From Fundidesulfovibrio agrisoli (GTDB taxonomy: Bacteria; Desulfobacterota; Desulfovibrionia; Desulfovibrionales; Desulfovibrionaceae), in assembly GCF_022808715.1 (NCBI RefSeq), contig NZ_JAKZKX010000003.1, forward strand, positions 62,001 to 126,000: a DNA stretch of 64,000 bases. Reading direction: 5' to 3'. The notes under the pieces are model-generated. The model was not told the origin of the DNA and searched no databases. It was given only the letters and a program-made list of their open reading frames with translations. Positions 25,573-44,960 of the stretch are shown piece by piece. The number at the start of each line of letters is the position of its first letter. Positions within the stretch are counted from its first letter, which is position 1. The translations under genes were made by a program, and so were the position numbers.

Positions 25573-26574
25573 ATGATACAAGACATCATGACCGTGGCGG
25601 AGACCGCGAAGCTCATCGAGGCGGGGAACGTGCTGCTCCTGGCGGGCGACGAGGCCGTGCTGCGCCAGCTCCCCAAAGGCAACTGGATCGGCGGGACCAT
25701 CCCGTACTTCATCTCCCACGCCGAGGGCGGGCTGGCCACGCGCGACCGCATCTTCGTCACGGACGTCACCGGCGTGGCGCAGAGCGTCGAGATCGTGGAG
25801 CGCGACGCCAACGGCTTGGCCAAGGTCTACGCCGAGGGGCCGCAGGAAGGCTTCAGCGTGGTCATCATCCCGGCCTTGAGCAAGGCCCACCTGTCCTTCG
25901 CGCTCAACGCCCCCAACTACAAGGATTTCGGCGTGCGCCCGCTCATCGGCTGGATCTCGGGCGTGCACCTGGACGATCTGGGCAAGGTGACGCCCAAGGT
26001 CTTCAACGGCGTGACCGGCAACGCGCTGGAGGAGGGGGCCGTGGTGCTCCAGGCCACCCTCAAACCCGGCAAGGTGGCCGAGGTGGGCATCGTCAACCTG
26101 TTCGAGCAGGGCGGGGGCGACATCCTGACCTTCCCGGCGGACGGGTTCTCGGCCAAGGAAGTGCTGGTCAACGGCGAGAAGCGCAACTTCGCGGCCTACA
26201 TCGTGAAGAACAAGCTGGATACCAGGCTGCCCCTGGTGGCGGACTATTACGGAGCCCTGGTGAACATCAGCTTCCAGGGCATCGACGAGGTGGAGGGCGA
26301 GGTGAAGTTCTACGCCCCCGTGTTCACCGGCATCCGCTACAAGCACGCCAAGCCCGTGGCCGACTACGGCGAGGCCTTCAAGGCCTGCCTGGAGAACAAG
26401 TGCCAGCTCTCCGAGGACAGGGTGGTGTTCTCCTGCAACTGCATCCTGAACTACCTCTACTCTGGTCTGGAGGGCAAGAAGACGGACCCCTTCGTGGGCC
26501 CCATCACCTTCGGCGAGATCGCCTACCAGTTGCTCAACCAGACCCTGGTCTACCTCGAGGTGCACGACGTCTGA
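25573..26574 (+). CDS. unknown protein, possibly FIST-like
   Basis: A 333-residue soluble protein without signal peptide or membrane helix. Features include IGGTIPYFIS near residue 40, GVAQSVEIVE, a GDILTFPADGFSAKEVLVNG segment and a C-terminal DRVVFSCNCILNYLYSGLEG followed by FGEIAYQLLNQTLVYLEV. The last part resembles the C-terminal end of FIST domains (small-ligand sensors), where a Cys-containing strand is followed by a short FGEI-type turn. I hold this assignment weakly. It is co-transcribed with the 77-residue gene and ends before two hairpins, one of them a terminator. Confidence 0.75.
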   Translation: MIQDIMTVAETAKLIEAGNVLLLAGDEAVLRQLPKGNWIGGTIPYFISHAEGGLATRDRIFVTDVTGVAQSVEIVERDANGLAKVYAEGPQEGFSVVIIPALSKAHLSFALNAPNYKDFGVRPLIGWISGVHLDDLGKVTPKVFNGVTGNALEEGAVVLQATLKPGKVAEVGIVNLFEQGGGDILTFPADGFSAKEVLVNGEKRNFAAYIVKNKLDTRLPLVADYYGALVNISFQGIDEVEGEVKFYAPVFTGIRYKHAKPVADYGEAFKACLENKCQLSEDRVVFSCNCILNYLYSGLEGKKTDPFVGPITFGEIAYQLLNQTLVYLEVHDV

Positions 26575-26728: not shown

Positions 26729-26764
26729 ACGGGGCGGCATTGCGCCGCCCCGTCTTGTTTTTTT
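26729..26764 (+). terminator. intrinsic terminator
   Basis: A perfect 10-bp stem (26729-26738 with 26744-26753), loop ATTGC, and then CTTG plus seven T. It ends the unit at 25330-26574 and sits between convergent genes. Confidence 0.9.
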
Positions 26765-26804
26765 GGGGAGTGTTCCCGGCCGCCGGGCCGGTCAGGGAGC
26801 CGCG

Positions 26805-27890
26805 CTAGGCTTCCGCCGGGGAGTCGGAGGTCTCGCCTGTCGTCAGCTCGTGCATGAGTTCGGCCACGGAGACGATCTTGTTTACGCGCCAGGCGTTGGC
26901 CCCGCAGAAGGCGAAGCCCGCCCTAAAGTTGCCGCGCTGGGCGCTGATGAGCGCCAGGCTGATGCAGTAGGGCGCCTGTTCGACCCCGCATGAGGCCATG
27001 CACTTGCAATAACAGGAGATGGGCGCGGTGTGCCCCTCGCTGACGTTGCGCAGGAAGGGGCTGACGATGGCCCGGCCGGGCAGGCCCAGGGGGCTGTCGA
27101 TGATCTGTATGTCGTCCTGGGTAGAGTCCACGTAGGCCCGCTTGAAGCGCAGGTCCGCGTCGCACTCGTGAGTGGCCACGAAGCGGGTGCCGAGCTGCAC
27201 GCCCGAGGCCCCGATGGCCAGCATGTCCAGGATGTCCTGGTGGGTGTAGATGCCGCCCGCGGCGATCACGGGCACGTCGCGCCCGTGGGTCTCCTTGAGC
27301 TTCTTGGCGACCTCCACCACGTCCTTCACCAGCACCTCAAGGCGCGATTCGGGGGCGTCCAGAGCGCTTCGCTTGAAGCCCAGGTGGCCGCCCGCCAGGG
27401 GGCCCTCCACCACGAAGGCGTCGGGCACGCGGTTGTAACGCGTGATCCACATGCGGGCCAGGAGCTCGGCCGCGCGCCCTGAGGAGACCACCGGGATCAG
27501 CTTGGTCTTCTGCCCCGGCTTCACCAGCCCGGGCAGGGTGCGGGGCAGGCCGCCGCCGGAGATGATGAGGTCCACGCCCTCGTCCATGGCGCAGGAGGCC
27601 ATGGCCTCGAAGTCCGTGAGGGATGCCAGGATGTTCACGCCGATGACGCCGGTCGTGAGCTCGCGGGCGCGGCGTATCTCGCGGCGCAGGGCCCGAAGGT
27701 TCGCTTCGGTGTGGTTGGTGCGGACGTCGGGCTCCTTGAAGCCGATCATGGCCGCGGAAATGACCCCCACGCCGCCCTCGGCCGCAACGGCTGCGGCGAG
27801 GCCCGACAAGGAAATGCCTACCCCCATGCCTCCCTGGATGATGGGCACGGGGATGTGGAGATCGTCAATGTAAAAACCGGGAAGGCTCAT
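26805..27890 (-). CDS. nitronate monooxygenase / FabK-like FMN enzyme
   Basis: A 361-residue TIM-barrel flavoprotein: PIIQGGMGVGISLSGLAAAVAAEGGVGVIS, VGVNILASL-type strand, ISGGGLPRTLP, FVVEGPLAGGHLG, VIAAGGIYTHQDILDMLAIGASGVQLGTRF. These place it in the nitronate monooxygenase/2-nitropropane dioxygenase family, which also includes enoyl-ACP reductase FabK. The C-terminal part adds a Cys-rich segment (CYCKCMASC plus further Cys), which ordinary family members lack and which could bind a metal or an Fe-S cluster. The start at 27890 follows AGGA; an in-frame ATG 21 bases upstream is less well placed. The true substrate is unknown. Confidence 0.87.
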   Translation of the reverse strand: MSLPGFYIDDLHIPVPIIQGGMGVGISLSGLAAAVAAEGGVGVISAAMIGFKEPDVRTNHTEANLRALRREIRRARELTTGVIGVNILASLTDFEAMASCAMDEGVDLIISGGGLPRTLPGLVKPGQKTKLIPVVSSGRAAELLARMWITRYNRVPDAFVVEGPLAGGHLGFKRSALDAPESRLEVLVKDVVEVAKKLKETHGRDVPVIAAGGIYTHQDILDMLAIGASGVQLGTRFVATHECDADLRFKRAYVDSTQDDIQIIDSPLGLPGRAIVSPFLRNVSEGHTAPISCYCKCMASCGVEQAPYCISLALISAQRGNFRAGFAFCGANAWRVNKIVSVAELMHELTTGETSDSPAEA

Positions 27891-28132
27891 ATGCGGTCCT
27901 GTCAGAGACACTGCCGGAGGCAGGATCGAGCGAGCGCCTAGCGCCGATGGTTAGGAGTTTCTTTCAAAGTGAACCCGAGTCGGGATATGTCAAGAAACGG
28001 TTTTTGTCATGCGCTATTAGGGCCTCTTGGCCGCCCGGAAGACGGATTAGGCTGAAATATTTCGTGAAGCGGGCTGTTTCCGGGCGGGCGGGCAGGGTGT
28101 GCCGCCCGGCTGACGGAAACTGGTGCGGTATC

Positions 28133-28148
28133 TGTCGCGGGGGCGACA
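28133..28148. promoter_or_regulatory. CooA-type binding site A (perfect)
   Basis: TGTCG-CGGGGG-CGACA has perfect 5-bp arms. Spacing and arms match the CooA operator known from Rhodospirillum rubrum (TGTCA-N6-CGACA). It abuts site B. Confidence 0.75.
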
Positions 28149-28164
28149 TGTCGGGGTGGCGACA
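28149..28164. promoter_or_regulatory. CooA-type binding site B (perfect)
   Basis: TGTCG-GGGTGG-CGACA has perfect 5-bp arms and begins at the base after site A. The two centres are 16 bp apart. A possible -10 (CATACT, 28205-28210) would place this centre about 60 bp upstream of a start near 28217. Confidence 0.75.
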
Positions 28165-28204
28165 ATTTCTTGTGCGTGATTCCGGGCGGTTGGGCCCTGG
28201 ATAG

Positions 28205-28677
28205 CATACTGTGGCGGTATGAATTTATGCTGCGGGACGCGATGAAGCTGGACGAAACCGCCGCGTTTGATTAAGGCTTTTCGAAAGACGCACGCCGTCC
28301 GTTCATTCCGGCCGGACCCATGTCGCCTGCGGCAGCTCTCACAATTCCGACAGCCGCGCGACATACCCAACCCCGGCAGCGCAGGCGCACGCAAGGAGCT
28401 CACCTTGCCGCCGCGCAGCCGACCGGCCGACCCAGAATGTCCGCCCGGCGTCCGTCATATCGGCCGGAAACCAACCCAAGTGGCTCCGGACGTAATAATA
28501 AACGCGCTCTGAACGCTGCCGCACGCAGCAGGACGGACTCGCGGGCATTGCAATGATTACTGGCTGTGTACGCCCATTGCGGCGTTTATACATAGCGGAG
28601 GGACCGCTCTCCCACTCCGCCCACCCGATTCAAGAGCCGAAGCATCCGCCTTCGGACTCGGGTGCGGCCTTTTTTTT
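28205..28677 (+). ncRNA. candidate CO-responsive noncoding RNA or cooA leader
   Basis: The region starts at a possible -10 just below two CooA-type sites and ends at an intrinsic terminator 33 bp before the cooA ATG. No frame inside has a good ribosome site and coding character. It could be a free-standing RNA of about 460 nt or a leader whose terminator attenuates cooA. The 5' end is a guess. Confidence 0.35.
28636..28677 (+). terminator. intrinsic terminator upstream of cooA
   Basis: GCATCCG (28642-28648) pairs with CGGGTGC (28659-28665) including one G-U pair. Flanking GCC/GGC lengthens the stem. Eight T follow at 28670-28677. Confidence 0.78.
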
Positions 28678-28709
28678 GCCCGCCGTTCGCCCAGTGCGAA
28701 GGGACATGT

Positions 28710-29381
28710 ATGGGAAGCCGCCTCAGATCTTCCGGCAGGAACCTGCTGGAAATCATATACAAGGAAGAAAACAAGGTCATTCTGGACGCCCTGCACGAAC
28801 GCAGCTACCGCAAAAGGCACCTGCTGTTCATGCCATACCACAAGGAAGACCTCGTATGCATCGTTAAAACAGGAAAACTGAGAATGTACATGGGCCTGGA
28901 GGGCAAGGAGCTCTCCCTGTCCATGCTCGGCCCCGGCGATATATTCAGCACACACTCCCGCGCGTATGTAGAGGCGCTGGAGGATACCACCATACTGGCG
29001 TGTCCGGTCTTCAAATTCTTCAAGGCCGCCATGGAACGCCAGGAATTCATGCTTCCCCTGCTCATGTCCCTGGGTGACATCCTCACCGGGGCCCTGAGCA
29101 TCATCGAACGTCTCTACTTCCACGACATCGACAAGCGCGTCGCGGCCTTCTTCTACGAAGAGGCCCTGTTGCGCGGTGAAAACAGCACGGACGGCATGCG
29201 CCTGCACGTCGGCCTCACTGTGGACAACATCGCCAAGATCGTCGGCTCATCCCGCCAGACGGTCTCCTCCCTCATATCCGCCATGGAAAAGAACGGCATC
29301 ATGAAGAAGCTTGCCCGTGGCGAATACCTCATCACGGACATGGAAGAACTGCGGCTCACCGCGCTGCCCTGCGCAGAGTGA
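28710..29381 (+). CDS. cooA: CooA-type CO-sensing CRP/FNR regulator
   Basis: A 223-residue CRP/FNR protein that follows CooA closely from end to end: N-terminus MGSRLR..NLLE, effector domain with GDIFSTHSRAYVEALEDTTIL, dimer helix with IERLYFHDIDKRVAAFF, and the recognition helix VGSSRQTVSSLISAMEKNGI. CooA binds heme and activates coo genes when CO displaces the N-terminal amine ligand. His82 (FSTHS) matches the axial His; the neighbouring redox-switch Cys of R. rubrum CooA is Ser80 here. The start at 28710 gives the N-terminus expected for the amine ligand and follows GAAGGGA; a frame from 28662 would add 16 residues read across the terminator. It lies 77 bp upstream of cooM. Confidence 0.88.
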   Translation: MGSRLRSSGRNLLEIIYKEENKVILDALHERSYRKRHLLFMPYHKEDLVCIVKTGKLRMYMGLEGKELSLSMLGPGDIFSTHSRAYVEALEDTTILACPVFKFFKAAMERQEFMLPLLMSLGDILTGALSIIERLYFHDIDKRVAAFFYEEALLRGENSTDGMRLHVGLTVDNIAKIVGSSRQTVSSLISAMEKNGIMKKLARGEYLITDMEELRLTALPCAE

Positions 29382-29396
29382 GAAAAGATTCACAAT

Positions 29397-29412
29397 CGTC
29401 GGCTGGACGACA
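29397..29412. promoter_or_regulatory. CooA-type site upstream of cooM
   Basis: CGTCG-GCTGGA-CGACA matches the CooA operator with one arm mismatch. Its centre is about 30 bp upstream of a weak -10 (GATAGG, 29432-29437), the class II activator geometry, and 54 bp before the cooM ATG. Confidence 0.7.
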
Positions 29413-29458
29413 GAAATAGACCCCCCTCTCGGATAGGGACGAGCAAAAGGAGGATGAC

Positions 29459-32400
29459 ATGCAACTTGCCACTTCCCTCGGACTACTCGTCGGGGCCGCG
29501 CTGCTGGTTGGCAGCGAGGTCAAGGCGTTACGGTCCTTGGGCGAACCAAAACGACTCATGGCCTTCTCGGCGCTGGCCCAGACAGGCTATGTGCTTATAG
29601 GCTTGAGTCTTGGCTCGTTCAACGGACTTACAGGTGCGTTTCTTCATATAGGCTACCAGGCCCTCATCCGCGCCCTCTGGTACACGTCGCTCAGGCGGCT
29701 GGCCGTTGGCGCTGGCGGCTGGAACCTGGAAACCCTGCGCGGCGCCGGACAGGGGCGCGAGACCCTCTCCGTGATGATGGGCTTCGCCATGTTCTGCGCC
29801 CTGGGCATCTCGCCCGTAACCGCCCCCGCGGGCAAACCCCTGGTGCTCTTCGCGGCCGTGGACGGCGGGCACATGCTCACCGCCCTGGCCATGGCCTTCT
29901 CCAGCGCCATCGCCGCCGTGTACACCGTGCGCCTCTTCCAGGCCGTCTGCCTGGAGAAGGCCGGCCCCAAGGCCGAAGGCGCCGCCAAGGCCGACCCGGT
30001 CAGCTGGGCGCTCATGGCCGCCTCGGTGCTGGCCTGCCTGTTCCCCCACGGGCTGATCCACATGGCGGCCTCCAGCGCCGCGGGCATCCTGGGCCTGGCC
30101 GACATCCCGGCCGTGGCCGAATTGGAAGGCTCCTGGCCCCTGCAGGTGCTGGTGCCCTACCTGGGCGGCTTCGCTGTCTACGCCGTGGGCCGCCTGATGC
30201 CCGCCTGGCGCTCCGCCCTGGTGCTGGCCGTCGCGGCCGCCACCGTGGCGGCCGCCTGGTTCACCCCGGGCCTGGCTCCGCTGCAGAACATGTTCACCAC
30301 GCTCTACGCGCTGGTGGGCGGCGTCATCATCGTCTACTCCCTGGGCTACGTGGGCGAGAAGCCCGGCTCCGACCGTTACTTCCTGTTCCTGTTCATGATG
30401 GTGGGCACGCTGGTGGGCCTGGCTTCGGCCAAGGACGCCGGCGGGTTCTACGTCTCCTGGGAACTGATGACCTTCAGCTCCTACATGCTGGTGGTGCACA
30501 AACGCTCCGAAGAGGCCCTCAAGGCTGGCGCGCGCTACTTCATCATGTGCGTCAGCGGCGCCTACGCCATGCAGGTGGGCCTGATGGCCCTGGTCTCCGC
30601 CGCGCCCCACGGCGCGCTCATGGACGCCGCGCAGGCCGCGCAGGCCATGGGCCCCGCCGCTGTCGCGGGCGTCGCGCTGCTGCTCCTGGGCGGCTTCGCG
30701 GTCAAGGCGGGCCTTTTCCCCCTGCACTCCTGGCTGCCGGTTGCCCACCCTGTCGCTCCTTCCTCCATCTCCGCGCCCCTCTCCGGCCTTCTGACCAAGG
30801 CGGGCGTTTTCGGCATGGCCCTGGTGCTGCCGATGCTCTTCCAGGGCTCCCTGGCGGGCACCTCGGCCTACGGCCTGCCCTTCCTGCTGACCCTGCTGGC
30901 CGCCTGCACCTTCGTGCTGGGCGAGGTCATGGCCCTGATCCAGTCCGACATCAAACGGATGCTGGCCTACTCCACCCTGGCCCAGATCGGCGAGATCGCC
31001 CTGGTGCTCTCCCTGGGCACCTGGGCCGCCACCACGGGCGCGCTGGGCCACGTGGTGAACCACGCCGTGATGAAGGACCTCCTCTTCCTCGCCGCCGGCG
31101 GCCTCATCATGCGCGCCGGAACCCAGCGCATCGACGCCCTGGCGGGCATCGGCCGGGCCATGCCCTTCACCGGGGCCTGCATGGCCCTGGGCCTGGTGGC
31201 CATCATGGGCCTGCCCCCGTTCAACGGCTTCTACAGCAAGTTCCTGATGCTGCACGCGGCCCTGGAGGCCGGCAGCGCCTGGATCGCCGTGCTGGTCCTG
31301 GCGGGCAGCCTGGTCGGCTGCGTGTACTACGGCCGCCTGATAAAGGTGCTGTTCTTCACCCCCTACAAGGGCGCCCATGTGCTCGAGACCCCCATGACCA
31401 TGCGCCTGGGCGTGGGCGCGCTGGCCGCCGTCACCGTGCTGGGCGGCCTCTTCCCCCATACCTGGCTCTCCCTGGTCACCCCCGCGGCCGACGCCCTGTT
31501 CCCCGGAGCCCACGCCGCGCTGCCCGACCTGACCGTCACCTGGGCGCTGCCCGTGATCCTGCCCCTGCTGGGCGCGGTGGCCGCCATCGTGCTGCGCGCC
31601 GACATGAAGCGCGCGGGCCTGGCCGCCACGGCGAGCCTGGTGCTGGCCGCTATCGTGCTGCTGGCCCAGTCCGGCGGCTGGGGCAGCCTGCAGTTCGCCT
31701 TCGCGCTGCTGGTGCTGCTCACCGGCGCGTGCAACATGTACTACTCCACCGGCTACATGAGCCACAGCCACACGCAGTGGCGCTTCTACGCCGTGTTCCT
31801 GACCATGATCGCGGGCCTGGTGGGCATGGGCACCGCCACCGGCTTCCTGGCCTTCTTCTGCTTCTGGGAGATCATGAGCTCCTGGCCGCTGTTCCTGGCC
31901 ATCATCCACGAGGAGAGCCCCGCCGCGCTCAAGGAAGGCACCAAGTACTTCCTGTTCAACGTGGCCGGAGCCTCCTTCCTGTTCCTGGGCGTGCTGCTGG
32001 TCGGCCGGGCCGCCGGCGGCTACGGCTTCGAGCAGGTTGCCCTGGCGCTGAAGACCCTGCCCCCCGCCGCCTGGATGACCGGCGTGTGCCTGATCGGCCT
32101 GGGCATGCTGATGAAGGCGGCCATGCTGCCCATCCGCATCGACTGGCAGATGCACCCGCCCACCGCGCCCACCCCTGTTTCCGGCTACATCTCCTCCATG
32201 CTGCTGAAGAGCGCTCCCTTCGGACTGCTCTTCCTGCGCTGGGGCCTGGCCGGAGGCGTGAACGTGGACGGCGCGGCCGCCCTGGACACCGCCATGTACG
32301 TGGGCGCGTGGATCGGCGGCATCACCATCATCTACGCGGCCATTCAGGCCCTCTTGCAGACCGGCATCAAGGAGATGCTCATCTACTCCACGGTCAGCCA

Positions 32401-44884: not shown

Positions 44885-44960
44885 TGGCTCCCCGGGGGTG
44901 ACTCGAACACCCAACCTAGTGATTAACAGTCACCCGCTCTGCCGATTGAGCTACCGGGGA
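44885..44960 (-). tRNA. tRNA-Asn (anticodon GTT)
   Basis: A 76-nt cloverleaf on the minus strand. Acceptor stem TCCCCGG pairs with CCGGGGA, discriminator G, encoded CCA at 44887-44885. The anticodon loop is CTGTTAA (anticodon GTT). The T-loop TTCGAGT is standard. It lies between the Anbu cluster and lysS and could be an integration site, but no integrase is near. Confidence 0.96.

Follow-up and report, generated by a model that had tools for sequence, protein, structure and literature searches.

A constrained, probably non-coding interval between tandem CooA-type sites and an intrinsic terminator upstream of cooA in Fundidesulfovibrio agrisoli

The cooA locus and its CooA-type sites

CooA is a well-studied gas sensor that is regarded as a plain one-component switch. 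In the Fundidesulfovibrio agrisoli genome analysed here (3.94 Mb; G000), its gene lies within a 64-kb stretch of DNA, referred to below as the window, and the gene product finds its best solved-structure matches among the CooA proteins 2fmy, 2hkx, 1ft9 and 6cpb. A divergent gene (26805-27890) lies to the left, while cooM follows to the right. An earlier, sequence-only reading had singled out the interval 28205-28677, whose coordinates proved correct, as a regulated small RNA or a leader that limits cooA expression. The features of the locus are collected in Table 1. The interval was compared with that of a congeneric genome, G003, and every conservation statistic given here is based on these two sequences.

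Table 1. Features of the cooA locus, in window coordinates
Feature	Position	Strand	Description
CooA-type site 1	28133-28148		TGTCG-N6-CGACA, perfect consensus; palindrome pair (TGTCGCGGGGGCGACA, TGTCGGGGTGGCGACA) with site 2
CooA-type site 2	28149-28164		TGTCG-N6-CGACA, perfect consensus; abuts site 1
Dyad CATAC-N7-GTATG(AA)	28205-28223	+	Holds two candidate -10 boxes picked by eye
Candidate conserved non-coding RNA body	28241-28677	+	19/437 positions differ from G003
Mini-ORF MKLDETAAFD-stop	28242-28274	+	Behind GGGA; candidate leader peptide
Hairpin 1 (AUGUCGC..GCGGC / GCCGC GCGACAU)	28320-28364	+	0/45 positions changed in G003
Hairpin 2	28374-28421	+	28360-28420: z -4.05, 0/200 shuffles fold as well
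Intrinsic terminator with 8 T	28619-28677	+	Hairpin 28619-28669, then T8 28670-28677
Terminator-to-ATG gap	28678-28709	+	32 bp; GAAGGGA is the likely ribosome-binding site; 0/32 changed in G003
cooA (CO-sensing CRP/FNR-family activator)	28710-29381	+	ATG at 28710; product matches CooA structures
Separate CooA-type site before cooM	29397-29412		1 mismatch; identical in G003

In Desulfovibrio, the CooA regulon is marked by a 16-bp palindrome with the consensus TGTCGGCNNGCCGACA before cooSC and the coo hydrogenase operon, according to the portion of a 2004 account drawn on here (PMC545781), and the same genes carry CooA sites in F. agrisoli. The site table in that portion lists a single site before cooSC, in two species, and a single one before cooM; unlike these, F. 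agrisoli has tandem sites before a probably non-coding interval and cooA. The tandem sites that had been read upstream of the interval are indeed two perfect, abutting palindromes at 28133-28164, TGTCGCGGGGGCGACA and then TGTCGGGGTGGCGACA when read directly. Both are perfect sites of the TGTC-N8-GACA type (consensus as given in the excerpted text of PMC7306483) with half-sites kept in the relative, where 0/20 half-site positions are changed against 5/12 spacer positions (both sites; Fisher P 0.004).

The pattern TGTCRN6YGACA has five matches in the 3.94-Mb genome, two of which are the abutting pair; two more precede cooS (contig C13) and hypA-cooF (window 37022), and the fifth sits within an ORF on contig C4. 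Since the reversed-pattern control yields three matches against these five, a single CooA-type site alone would be weak, but an abutting pair within the coo locus is unlikely to be due to chance. GAAAA recurs about 15 bp upstream of the cooS, hypA and cooM sites of this genome. A variant site, CGTCG-N6-(C/G)GACAGA, stands before cooM in 6/6 genus genomes examined (G000-G005), and CGTCG-N6-GGACAGA occupies the equivalent position in the cooA-cooM gap of G001, G002, G004 and G005. A second cooA copy was also seen on contig C13 (L045 9053-9687), behind cooS-cooC. It is split into two frames by a break near residue 160, before the DNA-binding part, which could reflect a pseudogene or an error in sequencing; the copy in G003 is one open frame. 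A contig scan with CooA confirmed no relative.

Downstream of the tandem sites, the two candidate -10 boxes are CATACT (28205-28210) and TATGAA (28218-28223), the latter similar to TATGGG behind the cooS site, and we infer that transcription starts at about 28217 or 28230. The arms of the dyad are unchanged in the relative (0/10) and its middle differs at 4/7 positions (P 0.015). Indeed, within the fast-changing stretch 28041-28240, half-sites (0/20) and dyad arms (0/10) are untouched against 47 changes at the 170 remaining positions, a pattern that reads as binding sites kept in a promoter that otherwise drifts, with a constrained transcript after it. The dyad itself occurs three times in the genome (28205-28221; L058 1501-1517; L059 1501-1517) and not at all in the control, and it could serve as an operator. 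No common function emerged for its copies: the one on C1 lies behind a moaC-like gene (by eye) and the one on C16 directly before a start codon. A sigma-70 scan of 26800-30200 returned a single sigma-70-like site on the minus strand and none on the plus strand. The scan misses CooA promoters too, as expected for activator-dependent promoters.

CooA-activated promoters of Rhodospirillum rubrum fall into spacing classes. In the consulted part of PMC6557876, the CooA sites of that organism are located before cooF and cooM, and the cooS, hypA and cooM sites of F. agrisoli are similarly close to their -10-like boxes (by eye), at about 19-22 bp. This close, class-II-like spacing is not matched by the putative leader promoter, in which site 2 is separated from the candidate boxes (by eye) by 40 or 53 bp, and a class-I-like position is possible. 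It also departs from the R. rubrum promoters in that its two sites abut and lie farther away, and in that its RNA would be terminated.

Constraint, structure and spread of the interval

The whole region is present in G003 with 91% identity over 810 bp, and the changes are unevenly distributed. The body 28241-28677, whose left bound was picked after the alignment had been seen, differs at 19/437 positions against 47/200 in 28041-28240 (P 2e-12) and against 84/629 fourfold-degenerate sites taken from the left gene, from cooA and from codons 1-480 of cooM (P 5e-7). The genes themselves are well conserved, as cooA and the start of cooM are 95-97% identical in the two genomes (in cooA, 22 synonymous and one non-synonymous codon differences in 224 codons). 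Their fourfold sites are only 87% and 90% identical, however, which attributes the high identity of both genes to amino-acid constraint; the interval, at 95.7%, exceeds the fourfold sites of cooA and cooM (P 0.002 and 0.001). By this comparison, 28241-28677 does not appear to be plain spacer. Constraint begins at about 28240, just ahead of the ten-codon mini-ORF, which differs at 1/33 nucleotides in the relative (MKLDETDAFD).

The interval is predicted to be at least partly structured. Taken as a whole, 28205-28677 folds better than 99/100 shuffles (z -2.77). A two-species consensus fold of 28217-28677, a start that was itself a guess, reaches an index of 0.931, compared with 0.885 +/- 0.021 when the same kinds of substitution are placed at random; 2/100 of these controls reach the fold index and 0/100 the energy. 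For 28241-28677 alone, the corresponding figures are 6/100 and 4/100. Local folds contribute unequally. The segment 28285-28418, which contains hairpin 1, has a z of -2.35, and hairpin 2 is very stable; 28580-28700 does less well, with 8/200 shuffles reaching its fold, and 28519-28620 folds no better than shuffled sequence in either species (66/200 in G000, 121/200 in G003).

Within hairpin 2, the pair C28380-G28415 becomes U-A in the relative, and a third change, A28378G, is unpaired. This is the one compensatory pair between the two genomes, and 262/500 shuffles equal the pair count, which is uninformative with two sequences; two sequences cannot prove covariation. On the structure predicted from G000 only, the changes avoid pairs: 14/24 fall at unpaired positions and 7 disrupt a pair (P 0.02). 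On that from G003 only, pairs are not avoided, with 8/24 at unpaired positions and 10 disrupting a pair (P 0.61). Known RNA families, including known riboswitches, were rejected: at Rfam gathering scores nothing matches the interval, the only match across the window being a tRNA at 44888-44960, and the best values for 27890-28720 are E 3.7-4.3.

The leader is narrowly distributed. Its DNA is found in 2/59 genomes at E 0.001 (own included), namely G000 and G003. Within the genus, 2/7 genomes (own included) carry it beyond chance level, among the matches listed; at the threshold of E 10 used there, all seven genomes give some match, and the best listed outside this pair (0.008) is at chance level and was not counted. 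A covariance model of hairpins 1 and 2 likewise recovers 2/199 family genomes (own included), with one copy each in G000 and G003, and its sole match in six further genomes, searched at their cooA loci (L039-L044), has E 6.8. Because 2/7 genus genomes carry it, the leader RNA would not be general to CooA systems, and it is probably young.

Other upstream regions look different. In the 900 bp before cooA in G001, G002, G004, G005, G263 and G086, there is no CooA site with two or fewer mismatches, and no terminator was seen by eye right before cooA in these genomes. In G005 a hairpin with 7 T lies about 430 bp before cooA, in G004 cooA comes after a thioesterase-like gene (by eye), and the cooA-upstream regions of these two align at 207/545 columns. 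Two genomes from a different genus of the family (g29) have perfect CooA sites just downstream of cooA, two in G263 (L043) and one in G086 (L044).

The terminator and the transcripts that reach it

The terminator with 8 T near cooA stands out as an authentic signal. Its hairpin has a predicted energy of -24.0 kcal/mol (-25.6 in the relative), and 0/200 shuffles of 28619-28677 fold as well (z -3.37). Runs of at least six T number eight on both strands of the 64-kb window; two of them are T8, and both follow a strong hairpin. Three of the 59 terminator positions differ between the species (28636, 28656 and 28665), the inner stem re-pairs and stability is maintained. The sequence-only reading was right about the proximity of the terminator to the cooA ATG, and its distance of 33 bp was one too many.

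Which transcripts would end here can be narrowed down from the neighbourhood. Past the nearest upstream plus-strand gene (25573-26574) stands a hairpin with T7 at 26758, and as the intervening gene is divergent, the likely clients of the terminator at 28670 start inside about 26.8-28.6 kb. Most likely, then, the transcript that it ends starts in the cooA-upstream intergenic region, where the CooA sites would be its evident activator. Downstream, the sigma-70 scan found no plus-strand sigma-70-like site in 28678-28709; with no recognisable promoter in the 32 bp past the terminator, cooA transcription probably crosses it.

A candidate leader RNA and its rivals

From the sequence comparisons, the interval is real, constrained and probably non-coding; a CooA-type promoter region precedes it, and it ends in a true terminator. 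The most likely mechanism, with about an even chance of being right, is a CooA-activated, mostly terminated structured leader that leaks into cooA. CO-loaded CooA would occupy both abutting sites and activate a start that lies downstream of site 2, about 60-75 bp from its centre, a class-I-like spacing. RNA polymerase would then produce a non-coding, structured RNA some 450-460 nt long; the majority of transcripts would stop at the terminator (28677) and leave a discrete RNA, and a minority reading through would supply cooA mRNA. In this way cooA would be under positive autoregulation that is damped from within, while a CooA site of their own would serve the hydrogenase genes that begin with cooM. 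The start point, the CO response, termination efficiency, read-through and a function of the RNA body are what we infer within this scheme.

Terminator-limited leaders and small RNAs derived from 5' untranslated regions share an order of promoter, structured untranslated RNA, intrinsic terminator and gene. F. agrisoli has the same order, ending in cooA. What differs from such leaders is that the promoter is presumably activated by the very protein that the gene past the terminator encodes, and no switch element is demonstrable. Judged by titles and abstract openings, literature searches brought up nothing on a small RNA or leader in a CooA system.

The leaky leader is favoured because of the sites, the constraint, the structural agreement, the kept terminator, the upstream location of its clients and the lack of a recognisable promoter after it. 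It is also favoured because cooA expression goes up under CO in Desulfovibrio vulgaris and Carboxydothermus pertinax, though not in C. maritimus, as reported in the excerpted text of PMC7306483. Against it stand the restriction to two species, the weak -10 boxes, a spacing unlike that of cooS, hypA and cooM, and the stretch 28519-28620, which shuffled sequence matches in folding. The control counts for 28241-28677 alone, the result with the G003-only structure, the codon-phase excess discussed below and an antiterminator of only 4 bp weigh in the same direction.

The main rival, somewhat unlikely by our estimate, is a trans-acting small RNA that belongs to the CooA regulon in its own right, for which the terminator is simply the normal end. 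The RNA would base-pair with or sequester other targets under CO, and cooA would lie downstream by accident and be made by weak read-through or from an unseen promoter. A strong, kept terminator and stable hairpins are what such an RNA would have, and no conserved antiterminator beyond 4 bp links the RNA to cooA. On the other hand, about 450-460 nt is long for a small RNA, no recognisable cooA promoter follows the terminator, and duplex energies with 17 gene starts revealed no convincing partner. The best was cooL (z -2.55, uncorrected), in a scoring confined to G000 that ignored accessibility, with starts set by eye and 9/17 of them belonging to the divergent gene and the coo genes.

An ordinary long 5' untranslated region is less probable again. 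CooA would autoregulate cooA through a leaky terminator that has no regulatory role, and the conservation would stem from recent common ancestry or locally slow change. The 95-97% identity of cooA and the start of cooM and the confinement of the feature to two species both fit this picture, whereas the lower identity of the gene fourfold sites relative to the interval, as well as structural agreement above that of most controls, speak against it.

A protein gene, short or decayed, in the plus frame 28246-28509 (TTG ORF 28267-28512) is very improbable. Third positions of this frame carry 12/19 substitutions (P 0.007; 0.022 after three frames), and 10/17 changed codons are synonymous. No other result speaks as strongly against a pure RNA, yet this one is judged to be chance, and a best-of-six-frames permutation reaches 10 synonymous codons in 184/2000 cases. 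Codon-position periodicity is absent, with G+C of 0.61, 0.61 and 0.65 across the three phases of the interval (0.65/0.61/0.61 by codon position of this frame) against a third-position G+C of 0.79-0.92 in cooA, cooM and the left gene. In addition, a 1-nt insertion in G003 at 28459 alters the C-terminus of the frame, and Pfam gave no match for the five interval frames tested. A search of 288 family genomes (own included), 105 of which had some match at E 0.1, found none better than E 0.001 per genome beyond G003, so that only G000 and G003 were counted. A protein gene was thus rejected on composition, indel and absent relatives, the codon-phase excess dissenting. The interval is probably non-coding, in line with the half kilobase without a convincing gene that had been read there, and the conserved protein frame that would have told against that reading was not convincingly found. 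What the one relative offers instead, namely constraint, structural agreement and one compensatory pair, favours an interval in which sequence and structure are conserved but no frame is.

Equally hard to credit is a ligand- or peptide-controlled attenuator whose body switches the terminator, for instance via the mini-ORF at 28242 or haem: a terminator near the cooA start, a structured 5' body and the conserved mini-ORF would suit it, but about 345 nt separate the end of the mini-ORF from the terminator, no known riboswitch appears at Rfam thresholds and the switching pairing itself is not kept. When growing transcripts of both species were folded in search of such a pairing, the best in G000 joined 28275-28285 with 28629-28638, in the 5' arm of the terminator, over 10 bp, and G28636A disrupts it in the relative; common to both were only 4 bp, GGGC 28543-28546 with GCCC 28619-28622. 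An RNA switch is therefore not claimed. The proposal of a regulated small RNA or leader thus gains support from constraint and structure in one relative, while its strict form, an attenuator in which the RNA switches the terminator, gains none.

A wider reading is decidedly doubtful. It would make the interval a new CO-response RNA, induced by CooA and acting both in cis, through the terminator, and in trans, through the folded body, as a feed-forward or feedback arm. No less doubtfully, such an RNA might tune the amounts of the CO sensor and the coo system, possibly reading haem or redox state.

If the leaky leader is real, a CooA-driven structured RNA before CooA's own gene would add an RNA layer to CO sensing, and it would suggest how cells limit a self-activating regulator. 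Promoter, RNA body and terminator together make up a short segment open to direct testing, and the genome that carries it has genes for CO dehydrogenase and the coo hydrogenase.
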